A stretch of DNA of 64,000 nt from the NCBI GenBank assembly GCA_040757085.1, contig JBFLXJ010000023.1:320575-384574 (forward strand), in the 5' to 3' direction. Positions 158 through 44,204 of this stretch are shown piece by piece (the first letter of the stretch is position 1; each line of letters opens with the position of its first letter). The notes beneath the pieces are model-generated. The model was not told where the DNA came from. It saw nothing but the letters and a program-made list of their open reading frames with translations, and did no database searches. Position numbers and translations under genes: made by a program. Source of the stretch: Bacillota bacterium (GTDB taxonomy: Bacteria; Bacillota; Sulfobacillia; JACIYH01).

Positions 158-403
158 GTGATCGCGGTGGGCATTCAGTATTTGGATCTGGTGGACGAGG
201 TGTGCCCGGTGCCCCTGTTGCGCATTCAGGAGGCCCTGCGGGCGGCAGGGGCGGGGGACGCGGTGGTGGCGCGGCTCGGCTACGCCCGCTCCGTGCGCAA
301 CGTGATGGAGTGGGCGGAGCGGGAGGGGATCCCGTTCACCGTGCACGAGGTGCGGGGAGGTGCCTGGGAAATCACCCTGCGCAAGGAGCCCCGCGGGGTG
401 TAG
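158..403 (+). CDS. TusA/SirA-family sulfur (or selenium) carrier protein
   Basis: An 81-residue protein beginning GTG 158, with a short AGGGA-like site just upstream. It carries the family motif CPVPLLR around residues 16-22; the first Cys of CPxP is the persulfide-carrying residue in TusA proteins. The length is typical of a stand-alone TusA. It lies between a membrane protein end and a YeeE/YedE gene, a known pairing in which a membrane channel imports thiosulfate or another sulfur or selenium species and the TusA-like protein accepts the sulfur. A selenium role (YedF-like) is possible because the window also encodes tRNA-Sec, but YedF is normally longer. The substrate cannot be decided from sequence. 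Confidence 0.8.
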   Translation: MIAVGIQYLDLVDEVCPVPLLRIQEALRAAGAGDAVVARLGYARSVRNVMEWAEREGIPFTVHEVRGGAWEITLRKEPRGV

Positions 404-486
404 GAGGTTCGCCGTGGGTATGGAGCCTTCCGTTCGTGAGGCCTCGGGCATGTCGAAGCGGTTCCCCGCGTGCGAGGGGACAGGCC

Positions 487-1127: not shown

Positions 1128-2267
1128 ATGTATTTGGACATGCGGGGGGATGAGATGGGTCCCAGCGTGATAGCCTGGGAGGCCACCCGGGCTTGCAATT
1201 TGGTGTGCCGGCATTGCCGGGCCGAGGCAGTTCCCGGCTGCGATCCGGCTGAACTCACCACCGAGGAAGCGCGCCGGCTCCTGGAGGACGTGGCCTCTTT
1301 CTGCCGGCCCACATTCATCATAACGGGGGGAGAGCCGCTCCTGCGGGCCGACGTCCTCGATCTGGCGCGCTACGGTACTGCCCTGGGCCTGCGGGTGGTG
1401 ATGTCCACCAACGGTACCACTCTCACGCCGGAAACGATAAAGACCATCCGGGAGGCCGGCATCGTGGCCATCTCGGTGAGCATCGACGGTCCTGACGCTG
1501 TCTCCCACGACGCATTCCGGGGCGTGCCGGGGGCATTTGATGCGGCTATGGCGGGGATGCGGCTGGCCCGGGAAGTGGGGTTGCCGTTTCAGGTCAACAC
1601 CACCGTAACCCGGCACAACGTGGCCGAACTGCCCCGCCTGTTGGGGTTGGCCCGCGAGGTGGGTGCGCTGACCTGGGACGTGTTCCTGCTGGTACCCACT
1701 GGCCGGGCATGCGCCGAAGATGAGATCGCCCCCGAGCAGTACGAAGAAGTGCTGGGATGGCTGCTCGACCAGTCGATGTCCGGCCATCGGGCCGGCGGGA
1801 TGCCGCCCGGGCCCGGGCACAGCGGTCACATGCGCATTAAGGTGACGTGCGGCCCCATGTACGCCCGGCTCTGGCTGCAGCGTAACGGGCAGGGGAGGCG
1901 TCCCCAGGGATGCATGGCCGGGGACGGCTTTGCTTTTATCTCCCGCACGGGAAAGGTGTACCCGTGCGGTTATTTCCCCCGGGAGGTGGGGGACGTCCGG
2001 GAACGGCCCTTCTCCGAAATTTACCGGGATGCACCCCTGTTCCAGGAGTTGAGGAACCCCGACCTCCTGCGCGGCAAGTGCGGGCGTTGCGAATTCCGCC
2101 GTGTGTGCCGCGGTTGCCGCGCGCGCGCCCTTGGCACTACCGGGGACTACCTGGCGGAGGAACCTTACTGCACTTATCAGCCCCGCGCACCGGTTCGCCG
2201 CCCGCCTGCCGGAGCGGCGGACGCAGGCCCGGGGGCTGAGGCCACGGCATGGGGATCGGAGAGGTGA
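1128..2267 (+). CDS. ahbD: AhbD-type radical SAM haem synthase (iron-coproporphyrin III decarboxylase)
   Basis: A 379-residue radical SAM protein with the cluster motif CNLVCRHC (Cys 23, 27, 30), a GGEP motif near residue 68, and a C-terminal SPASM-like region with CGYFP followed by CGRCEFRRVCRGC and a last Cys near YCTY. This pattern is typical of AhbD, which decarboxylates two propionates of iron-coproporphyrin III to give haem b in the siroheme-dependent pathway. NirJ is the nearest alternative. The context decides: ahbC, ahbA and ahbB follow in the same operon. In-frame ATGs at 1140 and 1155 are possible later starts. Its 3' end overlaps hemA by 19 bases, implying translational coupling. 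Confidence 0.88.
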   Translation: MYLDMRGDEMGPSVIAWEATRACNLVCRHCRAEAVPGCDPAELTTEEARRLLEDVASFCRPTFIITGGEPLLRADVLDLARYGTALGLRVVMSTNGTTLTPETIKTIREAGIVAISVSIDGPDAVSHDAFRGVPGAFDAAMAGMRLAREVGLPFQVNTTVTRHNVAELPRLLGLAREVGALTWDVFLLVPTGRACAEDEIAPEQYEEVLGWLLDQSMSGHRAGGMPPGPGHSGHMRIKVTCGPMYARLWLQRNGQGRRPQGCMAGDGFAFISRTGKVYPCGYFPREVGDVRERPFSEIYRDAPLFQELRNPDLLRGKCGRCEFRRVCRGCRARALGTTGDYLAEEPYCTYQPRAPVRRPPAGAADAGPGAEATAWGSER

Positions 2268-3541
2268 GGCAGGTGTACCGCCTGCTGATGTTGGGTGTTA
2301 GTTACCGGAGTGCGCCCGTGGAGGTGCGGGAACGGCTGGCCGTGCCGGGGCCGGAGATTCCCGAGTACCTCACCAATCTGCGAAGGCTGACGGGGGCTTC
2401 CGAGTGCGTTCTCCTGTGCACCTGCAACCGGGTGGAAGCCTACCTGGTGGATGCCTCGGAGTCCCAGGAGCTGGAAGGTGAGTGGGCGCGCAGGGCAGGG
2501 TCGGGAGTCCTGGGAGTGATTTACCGTCATGAGGGTGTCGAGGCAGCCCGGCACCTGTTCCGGGTGGCGGGAGGCCTGGACGCCATGGTCACCGGGGAGA
2601 CCCAGGTGTTGGGCCAGGTGAAACAGGCGCTGCAGACGGCCCGCGAGGCGTGCACGGCGGGGAAGGTGCTCAACGTCCTGTTCGAACACGCCGTCCGCAC
2701 TGCCCGCCGGGTGCATGGTGAGACGGCCGTGAGCAGGCGGACCGCTTCGGTGAGCGCGCTGGCGGTGCAGGTGGCGGCACGGCACCTGGGAACGCTGGCA
2801 GGGCGGCGGGTGCTGGTGGTGGGGGCGGGGAAGATGGGACGGCTTGCCCTCTCCCAGCTCAAACTGGAGGGTGCCGGGGAAGTGCTGGTGTGCACGCGCG
2901 ATCCGGCTCGAACCGGGGAGGCCCTCGCCGGCTGTACCCTGCTTCCCCTGAAGCCGGCCAGCCTCACGGAGGCCCTCGCCCGGGTTGACCTGGTTATCAG
3001 TTGCACGGCAGCGCCGGGGACGGTGATCGAACGGGACCTGGTGGCGCCCGCGGTGGCGGGCCGCTCGCGTCCCCTGCTGATATTTGACCTGGCGGTACCC
3101 CGGGACGTGGATCCCGCGGTGGGTGACCTGGAAGGTGTCCGGCTCTACGACATCGATGCCCTCGATCAGCACGGGGGCGGGGTCGGTCGTGAGCATGTGG
3201 ATCGCGGGGAAGCCATCTGCGCCGAAGAGGCCGGGCGGTTCGCCGCCTGGCTCAGGCAGCAAAGGGTGGTGCCGGTAATCAGGCGGGTGCGGGAAAGGGC
3301 GGAGCGCGTCCGCGCCGAGGAACTGGACCGGGCCATGCGGGAACTGCCCGGGCTGGGAGAGAGGGAACGCCGGGTGCTGGAGCTGATGACCCACCGGCTG
3401 GTGAACCGGGTCCTGGATGGCCCCATTGCCGGTATCAAGGGGTTGGCTCTCCAGCCCGAAGGTGACCGCGCCGTCCAAGTCGTGGCGCAGGTATGGGAGG
3501 GGCGGGGTCGGGATGATAAGCGTAAGCAGGCTGCTCTGTGA
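2249..3541 (+). CDS. hemA: Glutamyl-tRNA reductase
   Basis: A 430-residue NADPH-dependent glutamyl-tRNA reductase, the first committed step of tetrapyrrole synthesis. The N-terminal catalytic region has LCTCNRVEAY, containing the nucleophilic Cys of the family's TCNR motif; the central nucleotide-binding domain shows VVGAGKMGRLA; a helical dimerisation domain ends the protein, giving usual family length. ATG 2249 lies inside ahbD; GTG 2273, preceded by GGAGAGGTGAGG, is an equally good start. Its place between ahbD and ahbC suggests that precursor supply is matched to haem demand. The enzymes from ALA to siroheme are not in this window. Confidence 0.95.
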   Translation: MGIGEVRQVYRLLMLGVSYRSAPVEVRERLAVPGPEIPEYLTNLRRLTGASECVLLCTCNRVEAYLVDASESQELEGEWARRAGSGVLGVIYRHEGVEAARHLFRVAGGLDAMVTGETQVLGQVKQALQTAREACTAGKVLNVLFEHAVRTARRVHGETAVSRRTASVSALAVQVAARHLGTLAGRRVLVVGAGKMGRLALSQLKLEGAGEVLVCTRDPARTGEALAGCTLLPLKPASLTEALARVDLVISCTAAPGTVIERDLVAPAVAGRSRPLLIFDLAVPRDVDPAVGDLEGVRLYDIDALDQHGGGVGREHVDRGEAICAEEAGRFAAWLRQQRVVPVIRRVRERAERVRAEELDRAMRELPGLGERERRVLELMTHRLVNRVLDGPIAGIKGLALQPEGDRAVQVVAQVWEGRGRDDKRKQAAL

Positions 3542-4712
3542 TACGCCGGCGTACGGGGACGGATTGCGTTACGTGCCCTCGGCCGGTTCTCAGGTGGCGG
3601 GCACCCGGGAAGGTGCGGGGCCGGTGGTGGTATGGAACGTGACGCCAGCCTGCAACCTGCGCTGCTCCCACTGCTATTACGACGCGGGCCCCGGCGCCTC
3701 GGGCACGACTGTGCTGGATACCGACGAGGCCCTGGCCCTCATTTCCGACCTGGCCCAATTCCGGGTCCCGGTGATCCTCTTTTCCGGGGGAGAGCCTTTG
3801 CTGCGGCCCGACCTGCCCCGCCTCATCCGGCGAGCGGTGGAGCTGGGCATCAGGGCGGTACTTTCCACCAACGGAACCCTTATCACCCGGGAGCGGGCCG
3901 CCGAATTGCGGGAGATGGGGGTCGGCTACGTTGGTGTGAGCCTGGACGGCATCGGGGAGGCCAATGACCGCATGCGCGGGGTGCCGGGGGCATTTCGCAT
4001 GGCGCTGGACGGGATACGTAACTGCCTGGCGGTGGGGCAGCGGGTGGGGCTGCGCTTCACCATGACCCGGAGTAACGTGGACCAGCTCGGTGCCATTTTC
4101 GACCTGATCGGGCGGGAGGGTATCCCGCGGGCCTGCTTCTACCACCTGGTTTACTCGGGAAGGGGAGCGGAGCTGGTGGAGCAGGATCTCTCCCCGGTCG
4201 AGAGGCGCCGGGCGGTGGAGTTCATCGTGGAGCGCACCCTGGAACTGAACCAGCAGGGGCGCGCGGTGGAGATCCTCACCGTGGACAACCACGCCGACGG
4301 ACCCTATCTCTACCTCTGGGCCCTGCGCAACCGTCCCCAGCTGGCCCCGCGGGTGCTAGAACTCCTGCGCCTCAACGGGGGCAACCGCTCGGGCATCGCC
4401 ATCGCCGCCATCGATCACGAAGGTAACGTCTACCCCGACCAGTTCAGCCGCCATTACCCGGTGGGAAACGTGCGCCGGCAGCCGTTTTCCGAGATATGGT
4501 CGCGCGGCGAGCATCCTGTGCTGAGAGGATTGCGGCAACGGAAGACCCTGCTCCGGGGCAGGTGCCGGAGGTGTAGCTGGCTGGACGTCTGTAACGGGAA
4601 CTTCCGGGCCCGGGCCGAAGCCGCCGGGGACATGTGGGGCGACGACCCGGCCTGTTACCTGAACGAAGAAGAGGTCGCCTGGTCAGGGAGGGAGGAGCAG
4701 TGGACGGCATAG
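3513..4712 (+). CDS. ahbC: AhbC-type radical SAM enzyme (12,18-didecarboxysiroheme deacetylase)
   Basis: A 399-residue radical SAM protein with CNLRCSHC (Cys 47, 51, 54), FSGGEP and a C-terminal Cys cluster CRRCSWLDVC. The N-terminal stretch SRLLCDTPAYGDGLRY before the radical SAM core is characteristic of AhbC/NirJ2, which removes two acetate side chains from didecarboxysiroheme to form iron-coproporphyrin III. ATG 3513 follows a GGAGGGGCGG site and lies inside the hemA end, so it is preferred over the open frame reaching back to 3417. The ahbA and ahbB genes directly downstream support AhbC over the d1-haem enzyme NirJ. Confidence 0.88.
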   Translation: MISVSRLLCDTPAYGDGLRYVPSAGSQVAGTREGAGPVVVWNVTPACNLRCSHCYYDAGPGASGTTVLDTDEALALISDLAQFRVPVILFSGGEPLLRPDLPRLIRRAVELGIRAVLSTNGTLITRERAAELREMGVGYVGVSLDGIGEANDRMRGVPGAFRMALDGIRNCLAVGQRVGLRFTMTRSNVDQLGAIFDLIGREGIPRACFYHLVYSGRGAELVEQDLSPVERRRAVEFIVERTLELNQQGRAVEILTVDNHADGPYLYLWALRNRPQLAPRVLELLRLNGGNRSGIAIAAIDHEGNVYPDQFSRHYPVGNVRRQPFSEIWSRGEHPVLRGLRQRKTLLRGRCRRCSWLDVCNGNFRARAEAAGDMWGDDPACYLNEEEVAWSGREEQWTA

Positions 4713-5179
4713 ACCGCAGACTGCTGGACGTACTGCAGAGGGGCCTGCCGCTGTGCGCGCGCCCGTACGTGGCGGTGGCGGACGAGGTGGGCGTTTCCGA
4801 GGACGAGTGTCTCCAGCGCATCGCCAGGCTCAAGCAGGAGGGCATTATCCGGCGCCTGGGGGGCGTGTTCAGTACCCGCGCGCTGGGGTTCTACAGCGCC
4901 CTGGTGGCGATGGTGGTACCTCCCGAGGACCTGGATCGCGTGGCGGTGGTGGTGAGCGAGTACCCGGAGGTGACCCACAACTACGCCCGGGACGGGCGCT
5001 ATAACCTATGGTTTACCCTGGTCACCCCTCGGGAAGAAGATGCTCGTGCCCTGCTGGATGAGATCCGATCCCGCACCGGGGTCCGGGAGGTCCACCTGGT
5101 GCCGGCCGGGCGGGTGTTCAAGATCAGAGCCCACTTTCCCATGGGTGTGCTGAACGAGGAGGCCGCCGGTTATGCTTGA
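4700..5179 (+). CDS. ahbA: AhbA siroheme decarboxylase subunit (Lrp/AsnC-like fold)
   Basis: A 159-residue protein with an N-terminal winged-helix-like segment (DRRLLDVLQRG onward, degenerate as a DNA binder) and a C-terminal alpha/beta domain containing the VTHNYARDGRYNLWFTL region shared by AhbA/NirDLGH proteins. With AhbB it decarboxylates siroheme to 12,18-didecarboxysiroheme. GTG 4700 follows GGGAGGGAGGAG and overlaps the ahbC stop (4710-4712). Simple keyword annotation would call it an AsnC/Lrp regulator; the operon context and the HNY region argue for the enzyme. Confidence 0.87.
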   Translation: MDGIDRRLLDVLQRGLPLCARPYVAVADEVGVSEDECLQRIARLKQEGIIRRLGGVFSTRALGFYSALVAMVVPPEDLDRVAVVVSEYPEVTHNYARDGRYNLWFTLVTPREEDARALLDEIRSRTGVREVHLVPAGRVFKIRAHFPMGVLNEEAAGYA

Positions 5180-5639
5180 CGACCTGGACCGGGCCATCGT
5201 CAGGGAGTTACAGGGAAACATCCCCCTGGATCCACATCCCTTTGCGGTTATCGCCTCCCGGGTGGGGGCTTCGGAGGAAGAAGTACTCAGGCGAGTGCGT
5301 TCCTACTGGGAAAGGGGGTGGCTCCGCCGGGTGGCGGCGGTGCTCTACCACCAGGCAGCCGGGTTCCGGGGGAACGCCATGGTGGTGTGGAAGGTCCCCC
5401 CCGAGCAGGTAGAGCGCTTCGGGCGGCTGGCTGCCACGTTTCCGCAGGTAACGCATTGCTATGAGCGGGCGCAACTACCCGATTTCCCGTACAACGTTTA
5501 CACCATGGTGCATGGCGGCGACGACGAGGCCTGCGTGGAGGTGGCGCAGGCTATCTCTGCCGCTACCGGCATAGCGGAGTACCTGATCCTCACCAGCACA
5601 AAGGAGTATAAGAAGACGAGTGCCTGCTACATCCAGTAG
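5172..5639 (+). CDS. ahbB: AhbB siroheme decarboxylase subunit
   Basis: A 155-residue paralogue of the preceding protein with the same Lrp/AsnC-like layout. It has VTHCYER in the ligand-sensing half and the C-terminal TKEYKKTS stretch typical of AhbB. It forms a heterodimer with AhbA in known systems. ATG 5172 overlaps the ahbA stop by eight bases, continuing the coupled operon. A weak 6-bp hairpin (ATCCAG 5631-5636 with CTGGAT 5643-5648) overlaps the stop; the convergent LysR gene ends 84 bases further on. Confidence 0.87.
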   Translation: MLDDLDRAIVRELQGNIPLDPHPFAVIASRVGASEEEVLRRVRSYWERGWLRRVAAVLYHQAAGFRGNAMVVWKVPPEQVERFGRLAATFPQVTHCYERAQLPDFPYNVYTMVHGGDDEACVEVAQAISAATGIAEYLILTSTKEYKKTSACYIQ

Positions 5640-5723
5640 CTGCTGGATCCAGGAGCGTGCGGGCCTGCCTCACCGGTGGCCCCGCCGCCATGTGTCCGGC
5701 CGGTGACGGCAACGGGGCGCGTC

Positions 5724-6623
5724 CTAGCAGAGGTCGGCCGGGGTCAGGAACCGAATGAAGCGCCGGGCCAATCCCGACAGAAGGGGGTCGCGGCGGTGGA
5801 CGATCAGGAATTTCATGGGACCCAGTCCCCGGACGCGCAGGGCTTTCAGGCTTCCCGTGCGCAGCTCCCTCTGCACGGCCAGGCGGGAGAGGATGGACAC
5901 TCCTCGCCCGGCAGAGATTGCCGATTTGATGGCTTCATTTGATCCCATGGTCGCCACCACGCGGAGCTGGGCGGGATCGATGCCCGCCCGGGCCAGGCAT
6001 TGTTCTACTGCTTCCCTTACCCCTGACCCCGGCTCCCGCAGGAGAAGGGGCATCTGCAGCAGGTCCTGAGGTCCCAGTTCCTCCGCGGAGGACCACCGGC
6101 CGTTGGGAGCCACCACCGCCACGAGTTCGTCGGCGGTGATGGATCGCGCCACCAGGTCGGGCTCCTGCAGGATGCCTTCGTCGTACCGTTCCAGGATGCC
6201 CACGTCGAACTTGCCGTTTTGCACCCCGGCCACCACGTCGGCGGCAGAGGCGATTTCCAGCCTGATGTCGCACGTGGGGTTCTTTTCCTTGAAGGCCCAC
6301 ACTGTGCAGGGCAGTGCGTAATTGCCGATGCTCTCGGTGGCGGCGATGGTCAACCGACCGGTGTCGTCGGTGGCGCTCACCGCCTTTTCCATCCCCTGCA
6401 CCAGTTCCAGGATGCGGCGGGCGTACTCGAATGCCACGTCGCCTGCGGGGGTCAGGTCCACCCCCTGGGCGTGGCGGCGGAAGAGACGGGTCCCGAAGTG
6501 TTTTTCCAGGGAGAGGATCTGGGCGCTTACGCCCGGCTGGGTGAGGTGCAGGAGGCGAGCGGCCCGGGAAAAACTCTTGAGCCTGGCCACCGTGCAGAAC
6601 ACCTCGAGCTGCCATATGTTCAC
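5724..6623 (-). CDS. LysR-family transcriptional regulator
   Basis: A 299-residue LysR-type regulator. The N-terminal helix-turn-helix covers about residues 1-60 (FSRAARLLHLTQPGVSAQI), and the rest is a periplasmic-binding-like effector domain. It starts at GTG 6623 and is divergent from the multihaem cytochrome gene at 6836, so the 212-base gap between them probably holds its binding sites and may let it control the cytochrome cluster. The domain has general resemblance to CysL/CysB-type and to selenium-associated LysR proteins, which would suit the TusA/YedE genes and tRNA-Sec, but the effector cannot be named. Confidence 0.85.
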   Translation of the reverse strand: MNIWQLEVFCTVARLKSFSRAARLLHLTQPGVSAQILSLEKHFGTRLFRRHAQGVDLTPAGDVAFEYARRILELVQGMEKAVSATDDTGRLTIAATESIGNYALPCTVWAFKEKNPTCDIRLEIASAADVVAGVQNGKFDVGILERYDEGILQEPDLVARSITADELVAVVAPNGRWSSAEELGPQDLLQMPLLLREPGSGVREAVEQCLARAGIDPAQLRVVATMGSNEAIKSAISAGRGVSILSRLAVQRELRTGSLKALRVRGLGPMKFLIVHRRDPLLSGLARRFIRFLTPADLC

Positions 6624-6835
6624 GGCGATGCCTCCCCGCCGGTCGGGTTGGCTTTTACACTTTTTCGTAAGGTTATAAGTTCTATTACTGTCCCTATGTC
6701 TCCTGCTCCCATAGCCTCGTCTTATGCCCCGTGGGAAAGTGTGATGACCGGGAGCGCAGGAGGGGGAATGTTTGCCGTGAACTTTTTGTTAAGGCTGTCA
6801 CAAACTTGAACTGAGAAAGGGGGGAAACGGAGGAA

Positions 6836-9055
6836 ATGCGGAAAGCCATCGCTCTTCTGACCGTGCTGGCCCTGCTGGCCCTGCTCGGTGCGGCTACGGC
6901 CTTCTCCAAGGCGTCGTACGTCAGCTCCATGGTGGCGACGTACCCCAACCTCAAGGGATCCGAGCTGGCCGGCTGCGTCACCTGCCACACGACCGACCTG
7001 AAGCTCAACCGGTACGGGGCTGACCTGGCGGCGGCGGGCATGGACTACCGCAAGGTGGAAGGGAAGGACTCCGACCGGGACGGGTTCAGCAACCTGGTCG
7101 AGATCAAGGCCCTGACTTTCCCGGGTGACCCCGCCAGCAAGCCCGCGGCGTCCACCGGTTCGGGTACTTCGGGCGGGGGATCGTCGGGGACACCGGCGGG
7201 CGGTAGCGCCAAGCCGGCTCTCTTCCGCGATATTGCTCGCCACCCGGCACGGGAGGCCATTGAAACCCTGGCCGAGGCGGGCATCATCAAGGGGCGGCCG
7301 GGCAGGCTGTTTGCACCCGACGCTAAGGTGACGCGGGCCGAGTTCGCCACCATGCTGGAGCGCATCTTCGCCCTCCCGGAGGTGGCGCCCTACCTGCCCG
7401 CCTTCGAGGATGCTCCCAAGGAAGCCTGGTTCTGGCGGACCGTGGAGACGGTGGTGCGGGCCGGCCTGATGTCTCCTTCTGGCCAGGGCACCTTTGGCGC
7501 CAGTGACGGGGTGACCCGGGTGGAAGCCGCCCGGGTGGCGGTGAAGGCGCTCGGCCTGGAAGCTGAAGCCCAGGCGCTGCCCGAAGTGGAGCGGGCTGCC
7601 ATCCTGGGCAAGCTGGCCGACGGCGCCAGCGTCCCGCCGGATGCCGCGAACTACGTGGCAGTGGCCATCAGGCGGGGACTCTTCCCCGGCGAGGGCAGGT
7701 TCGAGCCGTCACGAACCCTCACCCGGGCCGACGCCGCCACGCTGCTGGCGAAGGTGCGGGAAGCCAAAAAGCAGATGCAGGATCCCCTGGCGGGGATTGC
7801 CAGCTACGTGGTAGGTCCGGAGCAGTGCGCCACCTGCCACAGCCAGGCGGTTTCCGACTGGCGTACCACCATGCACAGCCGCATGGTGCAGGAACCGGGG
7901 CCAGGCGTTACCAACGCGAACTTCGATGATCCCCGGGCGGGGATCAAACTCTCCGACGTCAGGTTCGTGGTCGGTGGCATGACGAAAAATTACTTCGTGG
8001 GAGCGGATTACAAGTACCTGCCCGCTGAGTGGAACATCGAAAAGAAGGAATGGCACCCGCGCGCGGTTTCACCCTGGCTGGGGGCGTGCACGGGGTGCCA
8101 CACCACCGGCTACGACAAGCAGCTCAACACCTTCGTGTCGCTGGGCATAAGTTGCGAGTCGTGCCACGGGCCCGGGTCCAAGCACGTGGCCACCGGCGGC
8201 AATACCGCTTACATCAAGGTCTCACTTGACGTGGACGCCTGTGAGTCCTGCCACGGCGGCGACCGGCAGGTGGGCCAGCTCAAGCAGACCGGGCACTACT
8301 CGGTGTTCGCCCAGATGGTAGATAAACCCTTCTACAAGGACAGCTGCATGGAGTGCCATTCGGCGACCGTGCGCATCGCCGGGGAGAAGGGGCAGCCGGT
8401 ACCGGCTTTGGCGGAGTTCCGCGACGGGAGCCTCAAGGAGGACCGGGTGGGCATCACCTGCGTGGTGTGCCACGATCCCCACAAGCGGGACCACGAGGCC
8501 CAGTTGCGCAAGGACGCCCAGGAAACCTGCACAGAGTGTCATACGGGCGAGTTGAAGGGAGACGCCTTCCCGGCGGGCAAGGACGTACACCACCCGCAGA
8601 AGGAGATGTGGCTCGGTACAGGTGCTATCGGGGTGCCTTCCATGCCGGCGGCCAAGACGGCCACCTGCGTGGACTGCCACATGGTGGCGGGCAACCACCT
8701 GTTCCGGGCGGGTACACCCAAGCTGACCGTAACCCAGAAGGGCAAGCCGGTGGAACTTGACTCCTGTGACGCCTGCCACAAGACCATGAACGCGGAGAAG
8801 ATCGCGGCGCTCCACCAGGAGTTCTCCAGGCAGATCGAAGAGCTGAAGGGCTTGCTGGCCAGGGTGGATGCCCGCATCAAGGAGCGCCAGGCCGTGGGGC
8901 TTGACGTGCGGGCGGCCCAGGAACTCCGTGACAAGGCGTTCACCAACATCTCCTTCGCCCAAGCCGACGCCTCGGGCGGCATCCATAATCCCGCCTACAT
9001 CACGGAGATGCTGCGCGTGGCCAGGCAGTGGCTGGAGGAGGCATTGACCAGATAG
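6836..9055 (+). CDS. SLH-domain multihaem c-type cytochrome (ten CxxCH sites)
   Basis: A 739-residue exported protein. A Sec signal peptide covers residues 1-23. An N-terminal haem site CVTCH lies at about 47-51, followed by a Ca-binding-like DSDRDG loop and a Gly/Ser-rich linker. Three S-layer homology repeats span about 128-315. Nine more CxxCH sites run from about 330 to 645 (CATCH, CTGCH, CESCH twice, CMECH, CVVCH, CTECH, CVDCH, CDACH), and a helical C-terminus contains GGIHNPAY, a stretch seen in cytochrome c552/c554-like proteins. SLH repeats bind the cell-wall polymer, so the haems should sit at the outer surface of a Gram-positive-type cell. Likely role: terminal extracellular electron transfer or an extracellular reductase. 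GGAGG precedes ATG 6836. Confidence 0.9.
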   Translation: MRKAIALLTVLALLALLGAATAFSKASYVSSMVATYPNLKGSELAGCVTCHTTDLKLNRYGADLAAAGMDYRKVEGKDSDRDGFSNLVEIKALTFPGDPASKPAASTGSGTSGGGSSGTPAGGSAKPALFRDIARHPAREAIETLAEAGIIKGRPGRLFAPDAKVTRAEFATMLERIFALPEVAPYLPAFEDAPKEAWFWRTVETVVRAGLMSPSGQGTFGASDGVTRVEAARVAVKALGLEAEAQALPEVERAAILGKLADGASVPPDAANYVAVAIRRGLFPGEGRFEPSRTLTRADAATLLAKVREAKKQMQDPLAGIASYVVGPEQCATCHSQAVSDWRTTMHSRMVQEPGPGVTNANFDDPRAGIKLSDVRFVVGGMTKNYFVGADYKYLPAEWNIEKKEWHPRAVSPWLGACTGCHTTGYDKQLNTFVSLGISCESCHGPGSKHVATGGNTAYIKVSLDVDACESCHGGDRQVGQLKQTGHYSVFAQMVDKPFYKDSCMECHSATVRIAGEKGQPVPALAEFRDGSLKEDRVGITCVVCHDPHKRDHEAQLRKDAQETCTECHTGELKGDAFPAGKDVHHPQKEMWLGTGAIGVPSMPAAKTATCVDCHMVAGNHLFRAGTPKLTVTQKGKPVELDSCDACHKTMNAEKIAALHQEFSRQIEELKGLLARVDARIKERQAVGLDVRAAQELRDKAFTNISFAQADASGGIHNPAYITEMLRVARQWLEEALTR

Positions 9056-9139
9056 CAGTGGTGATCCAGGGTCGAGCCGGGGGAGGAGACTCCGGGCCGG
9101 CTGCCGGCCCGGGTGCCCCCCGGTTCCTCGGAGGTGGCC

Positions 9140-10054
9140 ATGATGACATTGCGCAAGCTTCCCTCCCGTCCCCGCGCTGCGCGGGCCTCGGTGCCGCAGG
9201 CGGTCCTGGTCGCCGGACTCGTGGGATTGGCGGTGGCGACCCTTGCCGCGGCGGGCGCGGTGCTCACGGTTTGCACGGGGGCCGCCCTGGCACAGGCCGG
9301 CAACGAGCTGTGTCTCGGGTGTCACGGGCAGCAGGGGCTGACCACCTTTGACGGGGACAAGGAAGTAGATCTCTACGTCGACCCGCAAAAGTATGCTTCA
9401 TCGCCCCACGGGAAGGAGTCCTGCACTTCCTGTCATCCCCAGTTCCAGGGATTCGACCACGGGCGGGTGGCCCTGGGAGAGGAACTGCGTTTGCTCACCC
9501 TGCAGGCGTGTGTGAGCTGTCACGAGGGGTACGACTTCGGTGAGGGGAAAGTGTCCTGCCATCCCGATCCCCTCACCTGCGAGAAATGCCACGGTCCCAT
9601 CCACGAAGTGATGCCCCGGGGCGATCCCGCTTCGCCCATCAGCCGCGCCAATGCGGTGGGATTCTGCGCCTCCTGCCATGAGAAAGAGGAGACCAGCTAT
9701 TACTACAGTTTCCACGGATCGGCATATCGGCTGGGGTCCCGGCAAGCACCGCTGTGCACCGATTGCCACGGGCACCTCTCCCCGGTTAACGGGAATGTGG
9801 AGGAGGCCACCCTGATGTGCGGTAGCTGCCACCGGGGCAGCCCCGCCGCCATGGCCAACCTCCTGCGGGGCAAAGAGCACGTGACGCCGCAGGACCGGGA
9901 GAACGGGTTCCCCCTGTGGGTGGTGTGGAAGTTCTTCCTGGCTGTGATCCTCCTCAACACGGCCAAGGATGGTTCCCTGGCCATCCTCGACCTCACCCGC
10001 CGCCTGCGGGTCCGCAGCCGCAGCGGCCCCGAGGGAGGTGACGGCCATGCCTGA
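9140..10054 (+). CDS. Membrane-anchored seven-haem c-type cytochrome
   Basis: A 304-residue protein with an N-terminal hydrophobic signal (about 18-48), seven CxxCH sites between about residues 57 and 230 (CLGCH, CTSCH, CVSCH, CEKCH, CASCH, CTDCH, CGSCH) and one C-terminal transmembrane helix at about 258-280 with a basic cytoplasmic tail. ATG 9140 follows GGAGGT. Position between the SLH cytochrome and the cytochrome b suggests that it carries electrons from the membrane cytochrome b to the surface cytochrome. An NrfH-like or Cyc2-like assignment is not supported; I recognise only a generic multihaem family. Confidence 0.88.
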   Translation: MMTLRKLPSRPRAARASVPQAVLVAGLVGLAVATLAAAGAVLTVCTGAALAQAGNELCLGCHGQQGLTTFDGDKEVDLYVDPQKYASSPHGKESCTSCHPQFQGFDHGRVALGEELRLLTLQACVSCHEGYDFGEGKVSCHPDPLTCEKCHGPIHEVMPRGDPASPISRANAVGFCASCHEKEETSYYYSFHGSAYRLGSRQAPLCTDCHGHLSPVNGNVEEATLMCGSCHRGSPAAMANLLRGKEHVTPQDRENGFPLWVVWKFFLAVILLNTAKDGSLAILDLTRRLRVRSRSGPEGGDGHA

Positions 10055-10928
10055 TACGGTGGAGCGCTCTGCGCCCTCCGCGCCGCCAAGACGGCCTGTG
10101 ACGCCGGTGCCGGCAGGAAAGTCGGGGCGGTCTGACCCCACCATGAGGTTCGACATCCACGCCCGGCTGCAACACGCGATGCTGGCCTTGAGCCTGGGCG
10201 TCCTGATGCTCACCGGGTTTCCCATCAAATACGCTCACACCGCCTGGGCTCCTGCCGTGGTGCGCCTGTTCGGGAGTTTCGAAACCATGCTGAGGGTGCA
10301 CCTGCTGGCGGCGGGGTTGCTGGCCTTCGTGGTGGTGTACCACCTGGTGATGTGCCTGTGGGGTCTTGCCCGCAGGCGGCTCGACTTCGCGGTGATCCCC
10401 CATCTGCGCGACTTTGTGGACTTTGCCCATCACCTGAGTTACCTGGCCGGGTTCCGTCCCGACCCCCCCCGCTTCGGTAAGTTCACCTGGTGGGAGAAGT
10501 TCGAGTACTGGGCGGTTGTATGGGGAACCACGGTGATGGGCGTATCCGGCCTCACCCTGGCCTTCCCCGAATGGGCCGCGGCGTACGTGCCTCGCTGGGT
10601 GATCGGTGCACTCCGGGTGGCCCACAGCAACGAGGCCCTGCTGGCTTTCCTGGCCGTCCTCATCGGCCACTCCTTTGCCGTGCATTTCTCTCCCAGCGTC
10701 TTCCCTTCCAGCACGGTATGGTACAATGGTAAACTGAAATTGTCTCAACTGCTTGAGGACCATGCCCTCCTGTACGAGAGCATGGCGGGGTGTGCGGTGG
10801 ACGATCTGGACAGGGTGCCGCACAGCCGCTGGGCTCACAACCGGGTGTTGATCGGCCTGGAGCTGGTGGTGTACACGGGACTGGTGGCATGGGTGTTCGT
10901 GAGTCTGGTTCCCCTCCTGCCCCGCTAG
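10047..10928 (+). CDS. Membrane cytochrome b (formate-dehydrogenase-gamma/b561-like), probable quinol-oxidising subunit
   Basis: A 293-residue protein with four to five transmembrane helices and His residues placed as in diheme cytochrome b subunits (RLQHAML in helix 1, VHLL and VYHLVM in helix 2, AHSNEALL and IGHSFAVHF in helix 4). The first 30 residues are Pro/Arg-rich and the last helix is C-terminal. ATG 10047 overlaps the end of the seven-haem cytochrome gene, implying coupled synthesis. In known complexes such subunits pass electrons between the quinone pool and an extracytoplasmic partner; here the partners would be the two multihaem cytochromes. Direction of flow is inferred. Confidence 0.85.
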   Translation: MPDTVERSAPSAPPRRPVTPVPAGKSGRSDPTMRFDIHARLQHAMLALSLGVLMLTGFPIKYAHTAWAPAVVRLFGSFETMLRVHLLAAGLLAFVVVYHLVMCLWGLARRRLDFAVIPHLRDFVDFAHHLSYLAGFRPDPPRFGKFTWWEKFEYWAVVWGTTVMGVSGLTLAFPEWAAAYVPRWVIGALRVAHSNEALLAFLAVLIGHSFAVHFSPSVFPSSTVWYNGKLKLSQLLEDHALLYESMAGCAVDDLDRVPHSRWAHNRVLIGLELVVYTGLVAWVFVSLVPLLPR

Positions 10929-10976
10929 CGGTGAGGCGGCAGGCAGGCAGAGCAGTCGGGCGGAGGTAGTTGTGAC

Positions 10977-11488
10977 ATGCGGGGGCGGCTGTTGTGGGCG
11001 GGCTTGCTGGTACTGCTGGCGGCGGTGTATCTGGCCTATTCGGGATGGCAGGGGGCTGCCCTCTATTACCTGACCCCTTCTGAAGCGCAGGAGCGGGTGC
11101 TGTCGGGACGGGCTTTCCGCCTGGCAGGAAAGGTGGGTCCGGATGTGGCCTGGGATGCCACGGCCAAGCTCCTGCAGTTTCAGGTAACTGATGGCACCGC
11201 TGCCGTAGCCGTCGTTTACCGGGGGGTGCCGCCGGATAATTTCGGCCCTGGTCAGCAGGTGGTGGTGGAAGGCACCGGGGACGGCCAGGGGAGGGTGGTG
11301 GCGAACCGCCTGATCATGAAGTGCCCCAGCAAGTACGAGCAGGCCCCCGCATCCACCCGGCCTGCAGGGCAGAATGTCCTCTATGTGGGGGGTGCCGCCG
11401 TAGCGCTGGCGGTCGGCCTGGCGGTGGTGGCCAGTCGCCGTCTGACCGGGCGGGCGGGCCGGGGGAGAAGGGCAGGTACCGCCGTCTG

Positions 11489-11489
<1 letters not shown>
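10977..11489 (+). CDS. ccmE: CcmE haem chaperone, CxxxY type
   Basis: A 170-residue protein with an N-terminal membrane anchor, an OB-fold beta domain (RAFRLAGKVG, FQVTDGTAAVAVVYRG, GQQVVVEG) and a C-terminal helix. The haem-binding position reads MKCPSKYE, that is CxxxY in place of the common HxxxY. A CxxxY CcmE is known from some archaea and sulfate reducers in Ccm systems lacking CcmH. The extra C-terminal transmembrane stretch after residue 130 is less usual. ATG 10977 follows CGGAGGTAG. It receives haem from CcmABCD and hands it to CcmF. Confidence 0.88.
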
Positions 11490-13517
<2,028 letters not shown>

Positions 13518-13525
<8 letters not shown>

Positions 13526-14255
13526 CCGCGGTGCCGCGGTGAGCCGTGGCGCGGCGGTGGTGGTGCGGGACCTGGTACAGCGACTGGGCGGCCACGAGGT
13601 CCTGCGGGGGGTGAGCTTCGAGCTGCGTGCGGGGGAGGTGCTGGCCGTCCTGGGGCCCAACGGGGCGGGGAAAAGCACCCTGCTCCGGGTCCTGGGCACC
13701 CTCCTTCGCCCCACCCGGGGTGAGGTGCTGGTTCGGGGGCGGGACGTGCGCCGGAGCGGTCCTGACCTGCGTCGCTCCATCGGCTTCCTTGGCCATCACA
13801 CCTTCCTCTATCCCCAGCTCACGGGATGGGAAAACCTCTGGTTCTGTGCGCGGGCCTTCGGTGTTTCCGATCCGGAAACGAGGGTAAAGGAGATGCTGGG
13901 GGCCGTGGGTCTGGACCTTTTCGCCCACGAACCCGTGCGTCATTATTCGCGGGGGATGCAACAGCGGCTGGCGCTGGCGCGTGCGCTGCTTCACGATCCA
14001 CTGCTGCTCTTGCTGGACGAGCCGTACACCGGGCTGGATCCGGAGGCGGCCGGCCTCCTCGACGAGGTGATCGGCCGCTGGAGAGAGCAGAGCAGGTCGG
14101 TGGTCATGACCACCCACGATCTGGGGCGGGCCCTTTCGGGCAGCGACCGGGTGCTGGTGCTGCAGCGGGGGCGGGTGGTGCTGCTAGCGCCTTCCCGCAG
14201 CGTGGGGGCAAGCCGCCTGGAGGAAGCCTGCCGCCCGGGGGGTCACCGGGCTTGA
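13518..14255 (+). CDS. ccmA: CcmA ABC-transporter ATPase for holo-CcmE release
   Basis: A 245-residue ABC ATPase with Walker A GPNGAGKST, signature YSRGMQQRLALARAL and Walker B LLLLDEP. With CcmB and CcmC it powers release of haem-loaded CcmE. ATG 13518 is preferred; GTG 13506 is in frame upstream. It overlaps the ccmF end by eight bases. By sequence alone it is a general ABC ATPase; its identity rests on position between ccmF and ccmB. Confidence 0.88.
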
Positions 14256-14971
14256 ACCGGCCGCGCTCGGTGTCACCGGAATCGAGCAGGCCGGCGGGGT
14301 GGTGGCAGCAGGTTGCTGCCCTGGTGTGGAAGGAACTGCGGGCGGAGGTTCGCACGCGGGAGACCCTCACCCCCATGGTGGTTTTCGCCCTGGTGGTGGT
14401 GACCGTCTTCGGATTCGGCCTGCGTGCCACCGGAACCGATCTGACTCCCGTATTCCCCGGCTTGCTCTGGATTTCTTTTTACTTCGTAGGACTGCTGGGC
14501 CTGGGACGTTCCTTCTCCAGCGAGCGAGCCCAGGAAACCCTGGCGGGCCTGCTGCTGGTGCCGGCCGACCGCTCCTTTATCTTCGTGGGGAAGGCCCTGG
14601 CCAACCTGGTGTTCCTGGGCGTGGTAGAACTGATCTCGCTGCCCCTGTTTTTCGGCCTGCTCGGGGTCCCCTTTACCGCCCCCGTGCTGCCCTTTTGTGC
14701 TACCATGCTCCTGGGGACGGTGGGCTTCGCCAGCATAGGCACCCTGCTTTCTGCTTTGGCCGCCCACACCCGGGCGGCGGAGATGCTGCTGCCCGTGCTG
14801 GTGTTCCCGGTACTCATCCCGGCGGTAATCGGGGCTGTGGAGACCACCGCTTCCCTGCTGGGGGTCGGTGACCCCCTGGGGTGGAAGAGATGGCTGGGGC
14901 TACTCCTGGCCTACGATGCCCTGTTCGTGGCCCTGCCCCTGGTGCTGTTCGAGTACCTGATGGAACCCTGA
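14252..14971 (+). CDS. ccmB: CcmB haem-exporter membrane subunit
   Basis: About 239 residues with six hydrophobic segments and the CcmB-like features WKELRAEVRTRE near the N-terminus and FSSERAQETLAGLLL in the second loop. It forms the membrane part of the CcmAB complex. The TTG 14252 start overlaps the ccmA stop (14253-14255); GTG 14270 is a good alternative six codons later. The C-terminal part GWKRWLGLLLAYDALF also fits the family. Confidence 0.88.
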   Translation: MNRPRSVSPESSRPAGWWQQVAALVWKELRAEVRTRETLTPMVVFALVVVTVFGFGLRATGTDLTPVFPGLLWISFYFVGLLGLGRSFSSERAQETLAGLLLVPADRSFIFVGKALANLVFLGVVELISLPLFFGLLGVPFTAPVLPFCATMLLGTVGFASIGTLLSALAAHTRAAEMLLPVLVFPVLIPAVIGAVETTASLLGVGDPLGWKRWLGLLLAYDALFVALPLVLFEYLMEP

Positions 14972-14995
14972 TGCCCCCTGGTGGGAGGTGAGCTT

Positions 14996-15682
14996 TTGAG
15001 TACGCGGGGTTTGCTGGCCTGGGTGACGTTCGTGGGCATCCTGGCGGCCCTGTTCCTGGCTTTCCTCTATGCCCCGCCGGACGCCAAACTGGGTGACACC
15101 CAACGACTCTTTTACTTCCACGTGGCTTCGGCGTGGACGGGCCTCCTGGCCTTCACCGTGGTGTGCGTGGCCAGTATCGCCTACCTGCGCACCGGGCAGG
15201 CGAGATGGGACCGGCTGGCCCTGGCGTCCACCGAAGTGGGGCTGCTGTTCATCACCATGGCCGTGATAACGGGGTCCATCTGGGCCCGCTTCGCGTGGGG
15301 TACTTGGTGGGAGTGGGAACCCCGCCTCACCAGCGCGTTTATCCTGTGGCTCATGTACGCGGCCATCCTCCTGGTCCGGAACCTGGTGGAGGAACCGGAG
15401 CGCAGGGCCCGTTACGCGGCGGTGTTCGGTATAATCGCCTTTGCCGACGTGCCCGTTGTGTTCATGTCGGTGCGTTGGTGGCGTTCCGTTCATCCCGTGG
15501 TGGTGTCGGCTGCCGGGCTCGATCTGGAGCCGCCCATGGTGCTGGCCATGGTGGTGGCGGTGCTCGCTTTCACCCTGCTCTACGTAATGCTGGTCGGTGA
15601 GCGCGTCCGCCTGGCTCGACTGGAGCAGGAGCTGGCCGAGTGCAAACGCGCCTGGCGGGAAGAAGGGGGGGATGCGCGGTGA
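14996..15682 (+). CDS. ccmC: CcmC haem-delivery protein
   Basis: A 228-residue protein with six transmembrane helices and the WWD-type motif WGTWWEWEPRLTS; the usual family reading is WVWDxRLTS, so the Asp is replaced by Glu here. It loads haem onto CcmE. A GGAGGTGA site at 14984-14991 points to TTG 14996 rather than the upstream GTG 14981. The His residues flanking the motif, FYFHVASAW and SVHPVV, are present. The C-terminal tail is charged and helical. Confidence 0.9.
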   Translation: MSTRGLLAWVTFVGILAALFLAFLYAPPDAKLGDTQRLFYFHVASAWTGLLAFTVVCVASIAYLRTGQARWDRLALASTEVGLLFITMAVITGSIWARFAWGTWWEWEPRLTSAFILWLMYAAILLVRNLVEEPERRARYAAVFGIIAFADVPVVFMSVRWWRSVHPVVVSAAGLDLEPPMVLAMVVAVLAFTLLYVMLVGERVRLARLEQELAECKRAWREEGGDAR

Positions 15683-15861
15683 TCACGTATCTGTTCCTGG
15701 GGTACACGGCGGTGTGGACGCTGCTCTTCATCTACTTCCTGTACATCTCCGGCCGCCAGCGTGCTCTGGAGCGTGACGTGATGTGGATCCGCGACCACCT
15801 GGCGCGGCGGGAGAGTGCCTCGCCGGCACCGCAGGATGGCCCCGCGCCACGGCAGGATTGA
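15679..15861 (+). CDS. ccmD: CcmD-like small membrane protein
   Basis: A 60-residue protein that begins GTG 15679, overlapping the ccmC stop by four bases. One transmembrane helix (TYLFLGYTAVWTLLFIYFLY) is followed by a charged segment and a Pro/Ala tail, the layout of CcmD, which holds CcmE to CcmABC. CcmD is poorly conserved, so the call rests on size, topology and position. Confidence 0.72.
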   Translation: MITYLFLGYTAVWTLLFIYFLYISGRQRALERDVMWIRDHLARRESASPAPQDGPAPRQD

Positions 15862-15867
15862 GTCAGG

Positions 15868-15896
15868 TTGTGGCCGGTCGCGGCCGGTGCTAAAAT
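15868..15896 (+). promoter_or_regulatory. Putative promoter for tRNA-Sec
   Basis: TTGTGG at 15868-15873 and TAAAAT at 15891-15896 are 17 bases apart, ending 12 bases before the tRNA 5' end. This gives the tRNA its own start independent of the ccm operon. Confidence 0.45.
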
Positions 15897-15908
15897 ACGA
15901 AATAGTGC

Positions 15909-16005
15909 GGGGGCAGATGGGGACTGGTGTCTCCCGCGGCCTTCAAAGCCGTCGTCGGGTGCTGGACGTGCCCGTGGTGGGTTCGATTCCCACCTGCTCC
16001 CGCCA
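15909..16005 (+). tRNA. selC: tRNA-Sec (anticodon TCA)
   Basis: A 97-base tRNA with encoded CCA. It has an eight-base-pair acceptor stem (GGGGGCAG 15909-15916 with CTGCTCCC 15994-16001, one G-T pair), a long extra arm, a GTGGG/CCCAC T stem and the anticodon loop CTTCAAA giving TCA at 15943-15945. The 8-bp acceptor and large variable arm separate it from a suppressor tRNA-Ser. It shows that the organism reads UGA as selenocysteine. The selA, selB and selD genes are not in the window. Confidence 0.93.
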
Positions 16006-16094
16006 GTAAGGTTTCAAGGGAGCACCGCCAGCGGTTCAGCTAGACTGCCGGCGTACCGCTGCCAGTCACAGTAGCGCTTTGAGGAGGATAAAAG

Positions 16095-16343
16095 ATGCCG
16101 TTCAACATCGGGTTGCCGGAGTTGCTGGTCATACTGTTTATCTGCCTCATAGTTTTTGGTGCGGGGAAGCTTCCCGGAGTAGGACGAGCCCTCGGGCAGA
16201 GCATACGTGAATTCCGGCAGGCTTCCCAGGCCAAACCCGAGCCTGACCAGGCCGGATCCGAGCGCCCGGCAGGGCACGAGCAAGGGCCCGGGCCTGGCCA
16301 AGCAGGGACTGCAGGGCGGGCTGACGGGGGCAAGGAAGGTTAG
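16095..16343 (+). CDS. tatA: TatA/TatE-family twin-arginine translocase subunit
   Basis: An 82-residue protein: a short N-terminal hydrophobic helix (LPELLVILFICLIVFGAGKLP) with the FG hinge and GKLPGVGRALG amphipathic helix of TatA, then a Pro/Gly/Gln-rich cytoplasmic tail. GAGGAGG precedes ATG 16095. It forms the pore-like part of the Tat export system and is followed by a second TatA-like gene and tatC. Tat exports folded redox proteins with bound cofactors. Confidence 0.88.
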   Translation: MPFNIGLPELLVILFICLIVFGAGKLPGVGRALGQSIREFRQASQAKPEPDQAGSERPAGHEQGPGPGQAGTAGRADGGKEG

Positions 16344-16375
16344 GGCAGGAGATCCGGCGACCGGGAGGTGACCGC

Positions 16376-16582
16376 TTGAATATCAACGGTGGCGAGCTAT
16401 TGATCATCCTGCTGGTCGCCCTGGTCGTTCTGGGACCCAAGGAACTGCCCAAGATCGGCCGCGCCCTGGGAACCATGGTGCGCGAGTTCCGCCGCGCCTC
16501 CCGCGACATCGTGGACGAGCTGGGTCTGGACAGATGGGAGGAAGGCAAACCCAGGGATCAGGCCGAGAGCAAGCAACCGTGA
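16376..16582 (+). CDS. Second TatA/TatB-like translocase subunit
   Basis: A 68-residue protein from TTG 16376 after GGGAGGTGACC. An N-terminal helix (GGELLIILLVALVVLGPKELP) and an amphipathic helix KIGRALGTMVREFRRA follow the TatA/B plan; the GPKELP hinge resembles TatB more than the FGAGKLP of its neighbour. It may act as the TatB partner of TatC, or as a second TatA, since two-component Tat systems are common in Gram-positive bacteria. Confidence 0.82.
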   Translation: MNINGGELLIILLVALVVLGPKELPKIGRALGTMVREFRRASRDIVDELGLDRWEEGKPRDQAESKQP

Positions 16583-16634
16583 GTTTCCAGCCCGGGTCGG
16601 ACCGGGGAGGGATCCTTCTCCAGCAGGGTGCGAG

Positions 16635-17393
16635 GTGGGGTTGTTGGCGCAGAGGAAAAGCGAAATGACCCTGATGGAGCACCTGGAAGAACTGCGCCGC
16701 GTTCTGGTGGTGTGCACGGTGGCCGTGGGGATATCCACGGCCGTTGTTTACGGCTTCTTCCGGCAGGAACTGTATGACCTGGTAACGTTCCCCCTCCGTC
16801 AATACGACGCACCCTTGATCTTCATCGGCCTGGGAGAAGCCTTCATGACCCAGCTCAAGCTGGCGGTGGCGGCCGGGTTCGTCATCGCTCTGCCGGTCAT
16901 CCTGTGGCAGGTATGGGGCTTTATCGTGCCGGCCCTGAGGCCGGAGGAAAAGCGTATGGTGGGCGTTACCGCCCTGCTGTCGCTGCTCATGTTTTTCGCC
17001 GGAGCAGCATTCGCCTATTTCACCGTTTTCCGTTTTGCGGCCAGGTTCTTGATAACCGTGGCCGGCCCGGAGGTTCGGCCCATGCTTTCCATCGGCCACT
17101 ACGTTTCGTTCCTCGTCACCTTTCTCATCCCCTTCGGGCTCGCCTTCGAATTGCCCGTGATCATTTACTTCCTGGCCCGCTGGGGTCTGGTGACAGGTTC
17201 CTGGCTGGCCAGGAACCGCAGGCCCGTCATCGTGGTAATCTTCATAGTGGCGGCGGCCCTCACACCGACGCCCGACGTGGTTTCCCAGCTTCTCATGGCC
17301 GGCCCTCTGCTTCTGCTGTACGAAGTCAGTATACTGGTGGCGAAGGTGGCGGCCAATCGGGCCGCGGTGGTCCGCCCTGCTCAGGAGGGGTAG
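16635..17393 (+). CDS. tatC: TatC twin-arginine translocase receptor
   Basis: A 252-residue protein with six transmembrane helices. It keeps the N-terminal TatC motif MEHLEELRRVLV, the conserved loops PLRQYDAPLIFIGLGEAF and FIVPALRPEEKR, and TPTPDVVSQLLMAGPL near the end. It recognises twin-arginine signal peptides. The start is GTG 16635; TTG 16641 is close by. It completes a tatA-tatA/B-tatC group directly after the cytochrome-maturation genes. Confidence 0.93.
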   Translation: MGLLAQRKSEMTLMEHLEELRRVLVVCTVAVGISTAVVYGFFRQELYDLVTFPLRQYDAPLIFIGLGEAFMTQLKLAVAAGFVIALPVILWQVWGFIVPALRPEEKRMVGVTALLSLLMFFAGAAFAYFTVFRFAARFLITVAGPEVRPMLSIGHYVSFLVTFLIPFGLAFELPVIIYFLARWGLVTGSWLARNRRPVIVVIFIVAAALTPTPDVVSQLLMAGPLLLLYEVSILVAKVAANRAAVVRPAQEG

Positions 17394-44158: not shown

Positions 44159-44204
44159 GAACATCTCCCCCTGGAATGTGTGCTGTTACTCATACACCAC
44201 TGCC

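Follow-up and report, generated by a model that had tools for sequence, protein, structure and literature searches.

Three adjacent plus-strand genes in a 64,000-nucleotide stretch of DNA (hereafter the window) from a Bacillota bacterium of the class Sulfobacillia (GCA_040757085.1, contig JBFLXJ010000023.1) probably encode a menaquinol-linked electron conduit to the cell surface, by way of a CbcBA-like membrane complex and an SLH-held cytochrome of the OcwA/OmhA type. We refer to the SLH-anchored decahaem cytochrome as gene 1 (6836–9055), the membrane-anchored, CbcA-like heptahaem c-type cytochrome as gene 2 (9140–10054), and the CbcB-like, dihaem-type membrane cytochrome b of the b561 family as gene 3 (10047–10928). 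The window genome is designated G000, and G001 and G002 are members of the same genus; other G and L numbers denote compared genomes and loci. An earlier note on this DNA had described a three-gene cluster of which the last two genes overlap, comprising a ten-haem SLH cytochrome, a seven-haem membrane-anchored cytochrome, and a cytochrome b; the coordinates proved exact, with an 8-bp overlap, and the motif counts, SLH repeats, C-terminal helix, and Pfam matches given below bear out all three descriptions.

In the proposed path, the gene 3 cytochrome b and the gene 2 heptahaem cytochrome would form a quinol:cytochrome oxidoreductase in the membrane that oxidizes menaquinol, and gene 2 would pass the electrons to gene 1. 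The SLH repeats of gene 1 would bind a pyruvylated wall polymer and hold the protein in the wall, where, if it crosses the wall and is exposed outside the cell, it could trade electrons with minerals, shuttles, electrodes, or other cells as putative extracellular partners. The products of downstream ccm genes would build the c-type cytochromes. The proposal draws on which genes are present, on their domain architecture and family placement, on the conservation of the gene 2–gene 3 pair, and on the monoderm markers and CsaB. UbiA-family genes, a requirement for menaquinone and the sole marker of its synthesis looked at, are encoded in the genome.

Architecture and placement of gene 1

Gene 1 encodes 739 residues with CxxCH motifs at residues 47, 331, 418, 440, 469, 504, 542, 565, 611, and 644; all 20 cysteines sit inside these ten motifs, and 10,000 residue shuffles gave a mean of 0.015 motifs and a maximum of 1. 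A predicted signal-like N-terminal helix is followed by a single haem motif (CVTCH, residues 47–51; 6974–6988) and a DSDRDG Ca-binding-like (TSP3) stretch, TSP3_bac being a Pfam match in relatives of gene 1. Three SLH repeats with the motifs TRAE, TRVE, and TRAD (residues 128–308; 7217–7759; Pfam SLH, E 6e-30 over residues 130–308) precede a nine-haem OcwA-type core that ends in a helical bundle (residues 323–739; 7802–9052). In the predicted model (mean predicted local distance difference test score [pLDDT] 76.5, built from 15 sequences), the SLH domain matches that of Bacillus anthracis Sap (VIA-align Z 21.1, root-mean-square deviation [rmsd] 2.6, 176 residues), and the C-terminal helices (residues 653–686, 692–710, and 719–738) align to those of OcwA and NrfA.

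A profile of gene 1 and its relatives, searched against the PDB, matched OcwA (6I5B; E 1e-102), the nonahaem cell-surface terminal reductase of Thermincola (PMC6703420), and OmhA (6QVM; E 4e-85), the S-layer undecahaem cytochrome of Carboxydothermus ferrireducens, which is the most abundant multihaem cytochrome in ferrihydrite-grown Carboxydothermus and can be sheared off the cell surface (PMC7829351). Nitrite reductases came next, at 5e-17 and weaker. In Foldseek, 6QVM and 6I5B were the best matches, followed by the SLH domains of Sap and SpaA, and then by MccA, octahaem nitrite reductase, and NrfA; HAO-type enzymes scored Z 8.2–8.8 against the model. The model superposes on OcwA over 375 residues (VIA-align Z 18.0, rmsd 3.2), whereas model residues 149–739 match 6QVM at an rmsd of 12.3; thus, the domains are placed differently relative to each other. 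In the alignment, in which OcwA (L145) and OmhA (L152–L154) were picked out by sequence identity to PDB alignments, the nine core haems are in one-to-one register across gene 1, OcwA, and OmhA. Eight candidate distal histidines of gene 1 (His 347, 450, 487, 549, 585, 586, 621, and 717) recur in 27–31 of 31 homologues, as well as in OcwA and OmhA, and eight such residues for nine haems would be compatible with two high-spin haems (2 and 5 in OcwA).

These comparisons place gene 1 among the Gram-positive surface cytochromes of the OcwA/OmhA class, to which it adds a true SLH anchor and one more haem at the N-terminus. It shares with OcwA the nine core haems, the eight distal-histidine candidates, and the C-terminal helical bundle; unlike gene 1, OcwA has neither SLH repeats nor an N-terminal haem module, lies on the other side of a supported tree branch, and has no cytochrome b/heptahaem pair near its gene (L168). 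OmhA, the best Foldseek match (672 columns), has N-terminal haems, an SLH-like region, and the nine-haem core in the same order, and falls on the same side of the core tree as gene 1. However, OmhA carries 11 haems, two of them N-terminal, as opposed to ten and one in gene 1; its SLH-like region is not recognized by Pfam and is matched weakly by our own profile (one of three homologues, at E 8e-4); and its gene is a solitary one (L169), with the heptahaem–cytochrome b pair of that genome ~80 kb off. Orthology between gene 1 and OmhA was rejected on haem count and on the tree, in which OmhA forms a separate long-branched clade (support 100/100) with gene 1 outside. Identity with NrfA was likewise rejected, given that the catalytic CxxCK haem of most NrfA proteins is absent and every cysteine lies in a CxxCH motif. 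The CX15CH haem site characteristic of the sulfite reductase MccA is also absent, and no cysteine lies outside the CxxCH motifs; MccA was rejected on this ground.

The window genome also encodes a nine-haem paralogue of gene 1 on contig 31 (L060:6213–7964), the N-terminal module of which is 62–69% identical to that of gene 1, and which has a Pfam-confirmed copper-amine-oxidase N-terminal domain where gene 1 has its SLH repeats. OcwA-type proteins of other Bacillota (L142, L143, L146, L149, L151, and L164) have, as read by eye, a Cu-amine-oxidase-like N-terminal stretch at the SLH position. Surface modules therefore appear to be swapped on one haem core among OcwA-type proteins.

The CbcBA-like pair and its linkage to OcwA-type reductases

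Gene 2 has seven CxxCH motifs (shuffle maximum 2) and a match to PF09699 (21.8 bits, cut-off 20.6). Its start lies at 9140 or 9143, behind GGAGG, and the protein has hydrophobic helices at both ends, the C-terminal one spanning residues 257–294. Its predicted model was of low confidence (pLDDT 63) and gave no fold match in the structure search. Gene 3 matches PF01292 (38.8 bits, cut-off 30.1) and has six histidines (43, 85, 193, 208, 213, and 239) that are invariant among 14 homologues; it found no sequence match in the PDB, and a search of plasmids gave a weak match to formate dehydrogenase gamma and nothing else.

Of 151 class genomes, 13 encode a gene 2 homologue; these 13 also encode one of gene 3, for which one weak match was obtained in addition. 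The two genes stand side by side in all 13 (in G002 the cluster spans two contig ends). When the phylum was searched with a profile of gene 3, a heptahaem-type gene lay near the cytochrome b in 31 of 32 inspected loci, the sole exception (L119) being on a short contig, and an SLH or strong OcwA-type gene adjoined the pair in none of these 32. In Geobacter sulfurreducens, CbcBA (GSU0593-0594) consists of an adjacent PF01292 b561-type cytochrome b and a membrane-bound heptahaem PF09699 cytochrome c (PMC7726332). The likeness of genes 2 and 3 to CbcA (GSU0594) and CbcB (GSU0593) is one of published haem count, Pfam families, and membrane placement, not of alignment. CbcBA feeds periplasmic cytochromes in a diderm, whereas here an SLH surface reductase is encoded in the same operon. 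The arrangement of genes 2 and 3 is also that of the ‘Cbc-like’ clusters of the Gram-positive Carboxydocella thermautotrophica, which pair a dihaem cytochrome b with an outward-facing multihaem cytochrome c that has one membrane helix, and for which quinol oxidation with onward electron transfer to terminal Fe(III) reductases has been proposed (PMC6085454). The terminal reductase proposed there is, however, a 17-haem protein that this evidence does not relate to OcwA, and the nearby SLH protein is separate from the cytochrome.

The Carboxydothermus pair (G197:C1:305 kb) is, from gene length and neighbors, probably the one that Gavrilov et al. list as a seven-haem transmembrane protein. Two tandem heptahaem/cytochrome b pairs, separated by a few kb, are present in many Bacillota (G187, G191, G228, G231, G258, G259, G263, G265, G316, and G425); at these loci (L106–L108, L111–L115, L128, and L137), the two cytochrome b copies fall on different tree branches.

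The SLH decahaem gene adjoins the pair in the window genome, G001, and G002, that is, in this genus only; one scan of genome contigs returned a genus member only. Co-occurrence of the three genes, which the earlier note had put forward for checking, thus held for genes 2 and 3 but only in part for gene 1. Homologues of the SLH protein shown to be cytoplasmic, which that note would have taken as a refutation, were not found. Full-length or near full-length gene 1 homologues are also encoded by G020, on a different contig from its pair, and by four class genomes that lack the pair (G026, G028, G045, and G057), where they stand alone, with ATP synthase or rlmH-like genes nearby. In five further class genomes (G003, G005, G055, G081, and G089) representing four families, the neighborhood of the pair holds an OcwA-type gene of another branch, with or without ccmF; these reductases bear SLH repeats in G003 and G005 and none in the other three.

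In the core tree, gene 1 falls on the OmhA side, whereas the five linked reductases from outside the genus group together as one clade on the side of OcwA. A single origin of the linkage, with all linked reductases held together, was rejected by the approximately unbiased (AU) test (p 0.0002), and the tree accounts for the linkage with two changes of state. A single origin of SLH-bearing cores was also rejected (AU p 4e-8), although this set was defined only once the tree had been inspected. The cytochrome b tree likewise unites these five genomes in one clade, branching in the order of the reductase tree, and it groups the window genus with G091. These trees indicate at least two origins for the linkage of reductase and pair, which joint inheritance then preserved in one lineage. 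Such independent linkage is expected if the products work together, and its repetition, together with joint inheritance, argues for a functional partnership of reductase and pair. The pair is absent from the neighborhoods of OcwA, OmhA, and seven other OcwA-type genes.

Beside the linked OcwA-type genes and cytochrome b, several loci encode 18- to 22-haem proteins (L049:8529–10937, L050:4738–6525, L053:8097–9974, L057:4626–6776, and L058:9010–10812). The C-terminal part of those in G003 and G005 resembles gene 2, and the heptahaem protein may there have grown into a longer wire.

Envelope, direction of electron flow, and alternative readings

The window genome (2.67 Mb, 98% complete) encodes no Omp85/BamA, nor do 20 relatives, although seven diderm controls were positive in the same search; a diderm envelope with a periplasmic SLH protein was rejected on this ground. 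The enzyme that supplies SLH domains with their pyruvylated wall ligand, CsaB, is present (TIGR03609, 302 bits, cut-off 213). Because Omp85 is lacking and CsaB is encoded, the genome is treated as that of a monoderm with an SLH/pyruvylated-polymer wall system, in agreement with the Gram-positive type that had been claimed for it. A Gram-positive wall is 20–80 nm thick (PMC7911101) and the OcwA dimer is ~18 nm long (PMC6703420); a wall of 20–80 nm is much longer than one haem domain. Across the whole window genome, PF09699 finds genes 1 and 2, the nine-haem contig 31 paralogue, and two weak sub-threshold matches, and among the matches listed from a CxxCH scan there was one further trihaem protein, DsrJ. 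The gap might be met by a thin wall, by gene 1 working within the wall, or by the paralogue or soluble shuttles spanning it.

A related path that has been described is the ImdcA–PdcA–CwcA–OcwA route of Thermincola, which also leads from menaquinol to the surface of a Gram-positive cell and ends in an OcwA-type protein. It differs in that a membrane decahaem cytochrome, ImdcA, oxidizes the quinol, and separate periplasmic and wall-embedded carriers (PdcA and CwcA), thought to be needed as extra carriers, follow (PMC7911101). No counterparts of ImdcA, PdcA, or CwcA lie in the cluster; no homologue search was aimed at them across the genome. The earlier note had proposed a full route from the quinone pool to outside the wall. 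Its quinol side is supported by a conserved cytochrome b with an anchored multihaem cytochrome c, and its cell-surface side by an OcwA/OmhA-type protein with SLH repeats, but ‘full’ goes too far, as no wall-spanning step is evident. Nor does the further statement that this is not a described system hold for its parts, which have been described in OcwA, OmhA, Geobacter CbcBA, and the Carboxydocella Cbc-like clusters. In the open-licence literature, we found no description of SLH repeats with a multihaem cytochrome in this arrangement. What is new here is the single-operon arrangement, the strong SLH anchor, and the repeated linkage; the parts themselves are of known kinds.

Several points weigh against a conduit formed by these three genes. 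No component bridging a thick wall was identified. Close relatives of gene 1 occur in genomes that lack the pair, so gene 1 can work with other partners. OcwA slowly reduces nitrite and reacts with hydroxylamine (PMC6703420), and a soluble substrate is therefore possible. Finally, the organism has its own sulfite reductase and so need not respire an outside acceptor.

For the conduit, we consider outward electron flow the likeliest direction, with somewhat better than even confidence, because both OmhA and CbcBA, the two named relatives, are tied to Fe(III) respiration. The genome encodes dsrA (589 bits; contig 17: 191561–192721) and DsrMKJOP (L188, 18001–24000; DsrJ 179 bits, cut-off 100). 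Thus, we infer that the organism is probably a dissimilatory sulfite or sulfate reducer of a Gram-positive class. On this basis, flow could instead be inward: gene 1 would take up electrons from outside (from a syntrophic partner, metallic iron, a cathode, or Fe(II)), and genes 2 and 3 would reduce menaquinone, feeding DsrMKJOP and sulfite reduction. Above the cut-off, dsrA occurs in G000, G001, G002, G020, and G028, all of which have the SLH decahaem protein, and in no searched genome lacking that protein. The genome has few other multihaem cytochromes, and reverse operation of CbcBA has been proposed for the Seep-SRB2 partners of methanotrophic archaea (PMC10553843). However, dsrA is lacking in three genomes that encode the SLH protein (G026, G045, and G057), and the association was noticed after the fact in few lineages; uptake is accordingly entertained as a tentative alternative, with odds well short of even.

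Less credible is the reading of gene 1 as a wall-attached, quinol-fed reductase for a small soluble substrate (nitrite, hydroxylamine, or oxidized sulfur compounds) in respiration or detoxification. Its core fold is common to NrfA, octahaem nitrite reductase, and MccA, and the pairing of a quinol oxidase with a reductase is the rule in NrfHA-type enzymes. OcwA itself reduces nitrite slowly and both reduces and oxidizes hydroxylamine (PMC6703420). Yet the match to such reductases is at the level of fold, and the close matches are surface cytochromes linked to Fe(III): OcwA and OmhA are closer in sequence by tens of orders of magnitude in E-value, and gene 1 lacks both the CxxCK haem and the unusual MccA site. 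A wall anchor would also be of no advantage for a freely diffusing substrate.

It is similarly improbable that gene 1 is not a partner of genes 2 and 3 at all, being their neighbor only through a shared ccm operon and fed by another carrier: multihaem genes do often gather around ccm, and the four solitary homologues in pairless genomes fit, but an OcwA-type gene joined the pair independently in at least two lineages, among them five other genomes from four families, whether or not ccmF was present, and PF09699 finds one further multihaem cytochrome in the genome besides DsrJ.

Genomic setting and implications

Each of genes 1–3 is preceded by a Shine–Dalgarno-like sequence; genes 1 and 2 are 84 bp apart, genes 2 and 3 overlap by 8 bp, and 48 bp separate gene 3 from ccmE. 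The ratio of nonsynonymous to synonymous substitution rates (dN/dS), determined against G001, is 0.14–0.17 for all three genes, which are therefore under purifying selection. The genes that follow on the plus strand are ccmE (10977–11489; PF03100, E 3e-23), ccmF (11489–13525; TIGR00353 442 bits, below the cut-off of 569; PF16327 and PF01578), the start of which was placed at a TGATG overlap with ccmE, ccmA (13506–14255; TIGR01189 147.8 bits, above the cut-off of 131.6), and ccmC (14981–15682; TIGR01191 132.7 bits, below the cut-off of 186), with tatC on the 3′ side. Between ccmA and ccmC, a plus-strand open reading frame (13826–14971) has 92% identity to a G001 frame in the same place; its true start lies further in, and its C-terminal part is named ccmB-like from this position.

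Upstream, plus-strand genes for haem supply (1128–5639) encode AhbD-like and NirJ1/AhbC-like radical SAM enzymes, hemA, ahbA, and ahbB; the last three score above their family cut-offs, and the two radical SAM names are best matches below cut-off. Window positions 1128–17393 thus form a continuous haem-to-cytochrome locus (siroheme-route haem synthesis, hemA, cytochromes, ccm, and tatC) that is largely kept in G001. A LysR-family regulator (5724–6623, minus strand; NCBIfam) is divergent from the cluster and shares with gene 1 a 212-bp intergenic region (6624–6835), from which position it is a possible regulator of the cluster. Its best match is the selenium-metabolism LysR family NF040786 (229 bits, just missing the cut-off of 250), and it also matches the multihaem-cytochrome-associated LysR family NF041036 (137 bits, cut-off 210). 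At window positions 158–948, a TusA-like protein (PF01206) is followed by a YeeE/YedE-looking membrane protein (named by eye); with the selenium-metabolism-like LysR nearby, these suggest a sulfur or selenium function. Elsewhere in the window (39638–44164, minus strand), a 1508-residue protein with two FAD/NAD-binding halves and several 4Fe–4S domains is HdrA-like in appearance, and is a possible electron-bifurcating part.

The cluster thus probably lets a Gram-positive sulfite reducer exchange electrons with its environment via an unusually small set of parts, each of them known, though not arranged in this way. A bolder reading, which we regard as doubtful, is that a two-protein quinol complex and one wall-anchored cytochrome make up one of the smallest multihaem systems to work across a monoderm envelope, in a sulfite- or sulfate-reducing Gram-positive lineage, possibly serving to take up electrons, in direct interspecies transfer or iron corrosion, and that the union of reductase and complex evolved at least twice.

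The passage of electrons through a thick Gram-positive wall by way of multihaem cytochromes remains an open question; in the examples known so far, the cytochromes are numerous and their genes dispersed across the genome. In the window genome, which has very few other multihaem proteins, a single locus holds both ends of the path, quinol and surface, along with the genes for maturation, and the whole path would therefore be movable into a heterologous host. Should electrons flow inward, the cluster would be a candidate uptake path for Gram-positive sulfate reducers. For OcwA/OmhA-type proteins at large, the likely missing quinol end is the CbcBA-like pair, given that OcwA-type reductases joined such a pair repeatedly and independently.

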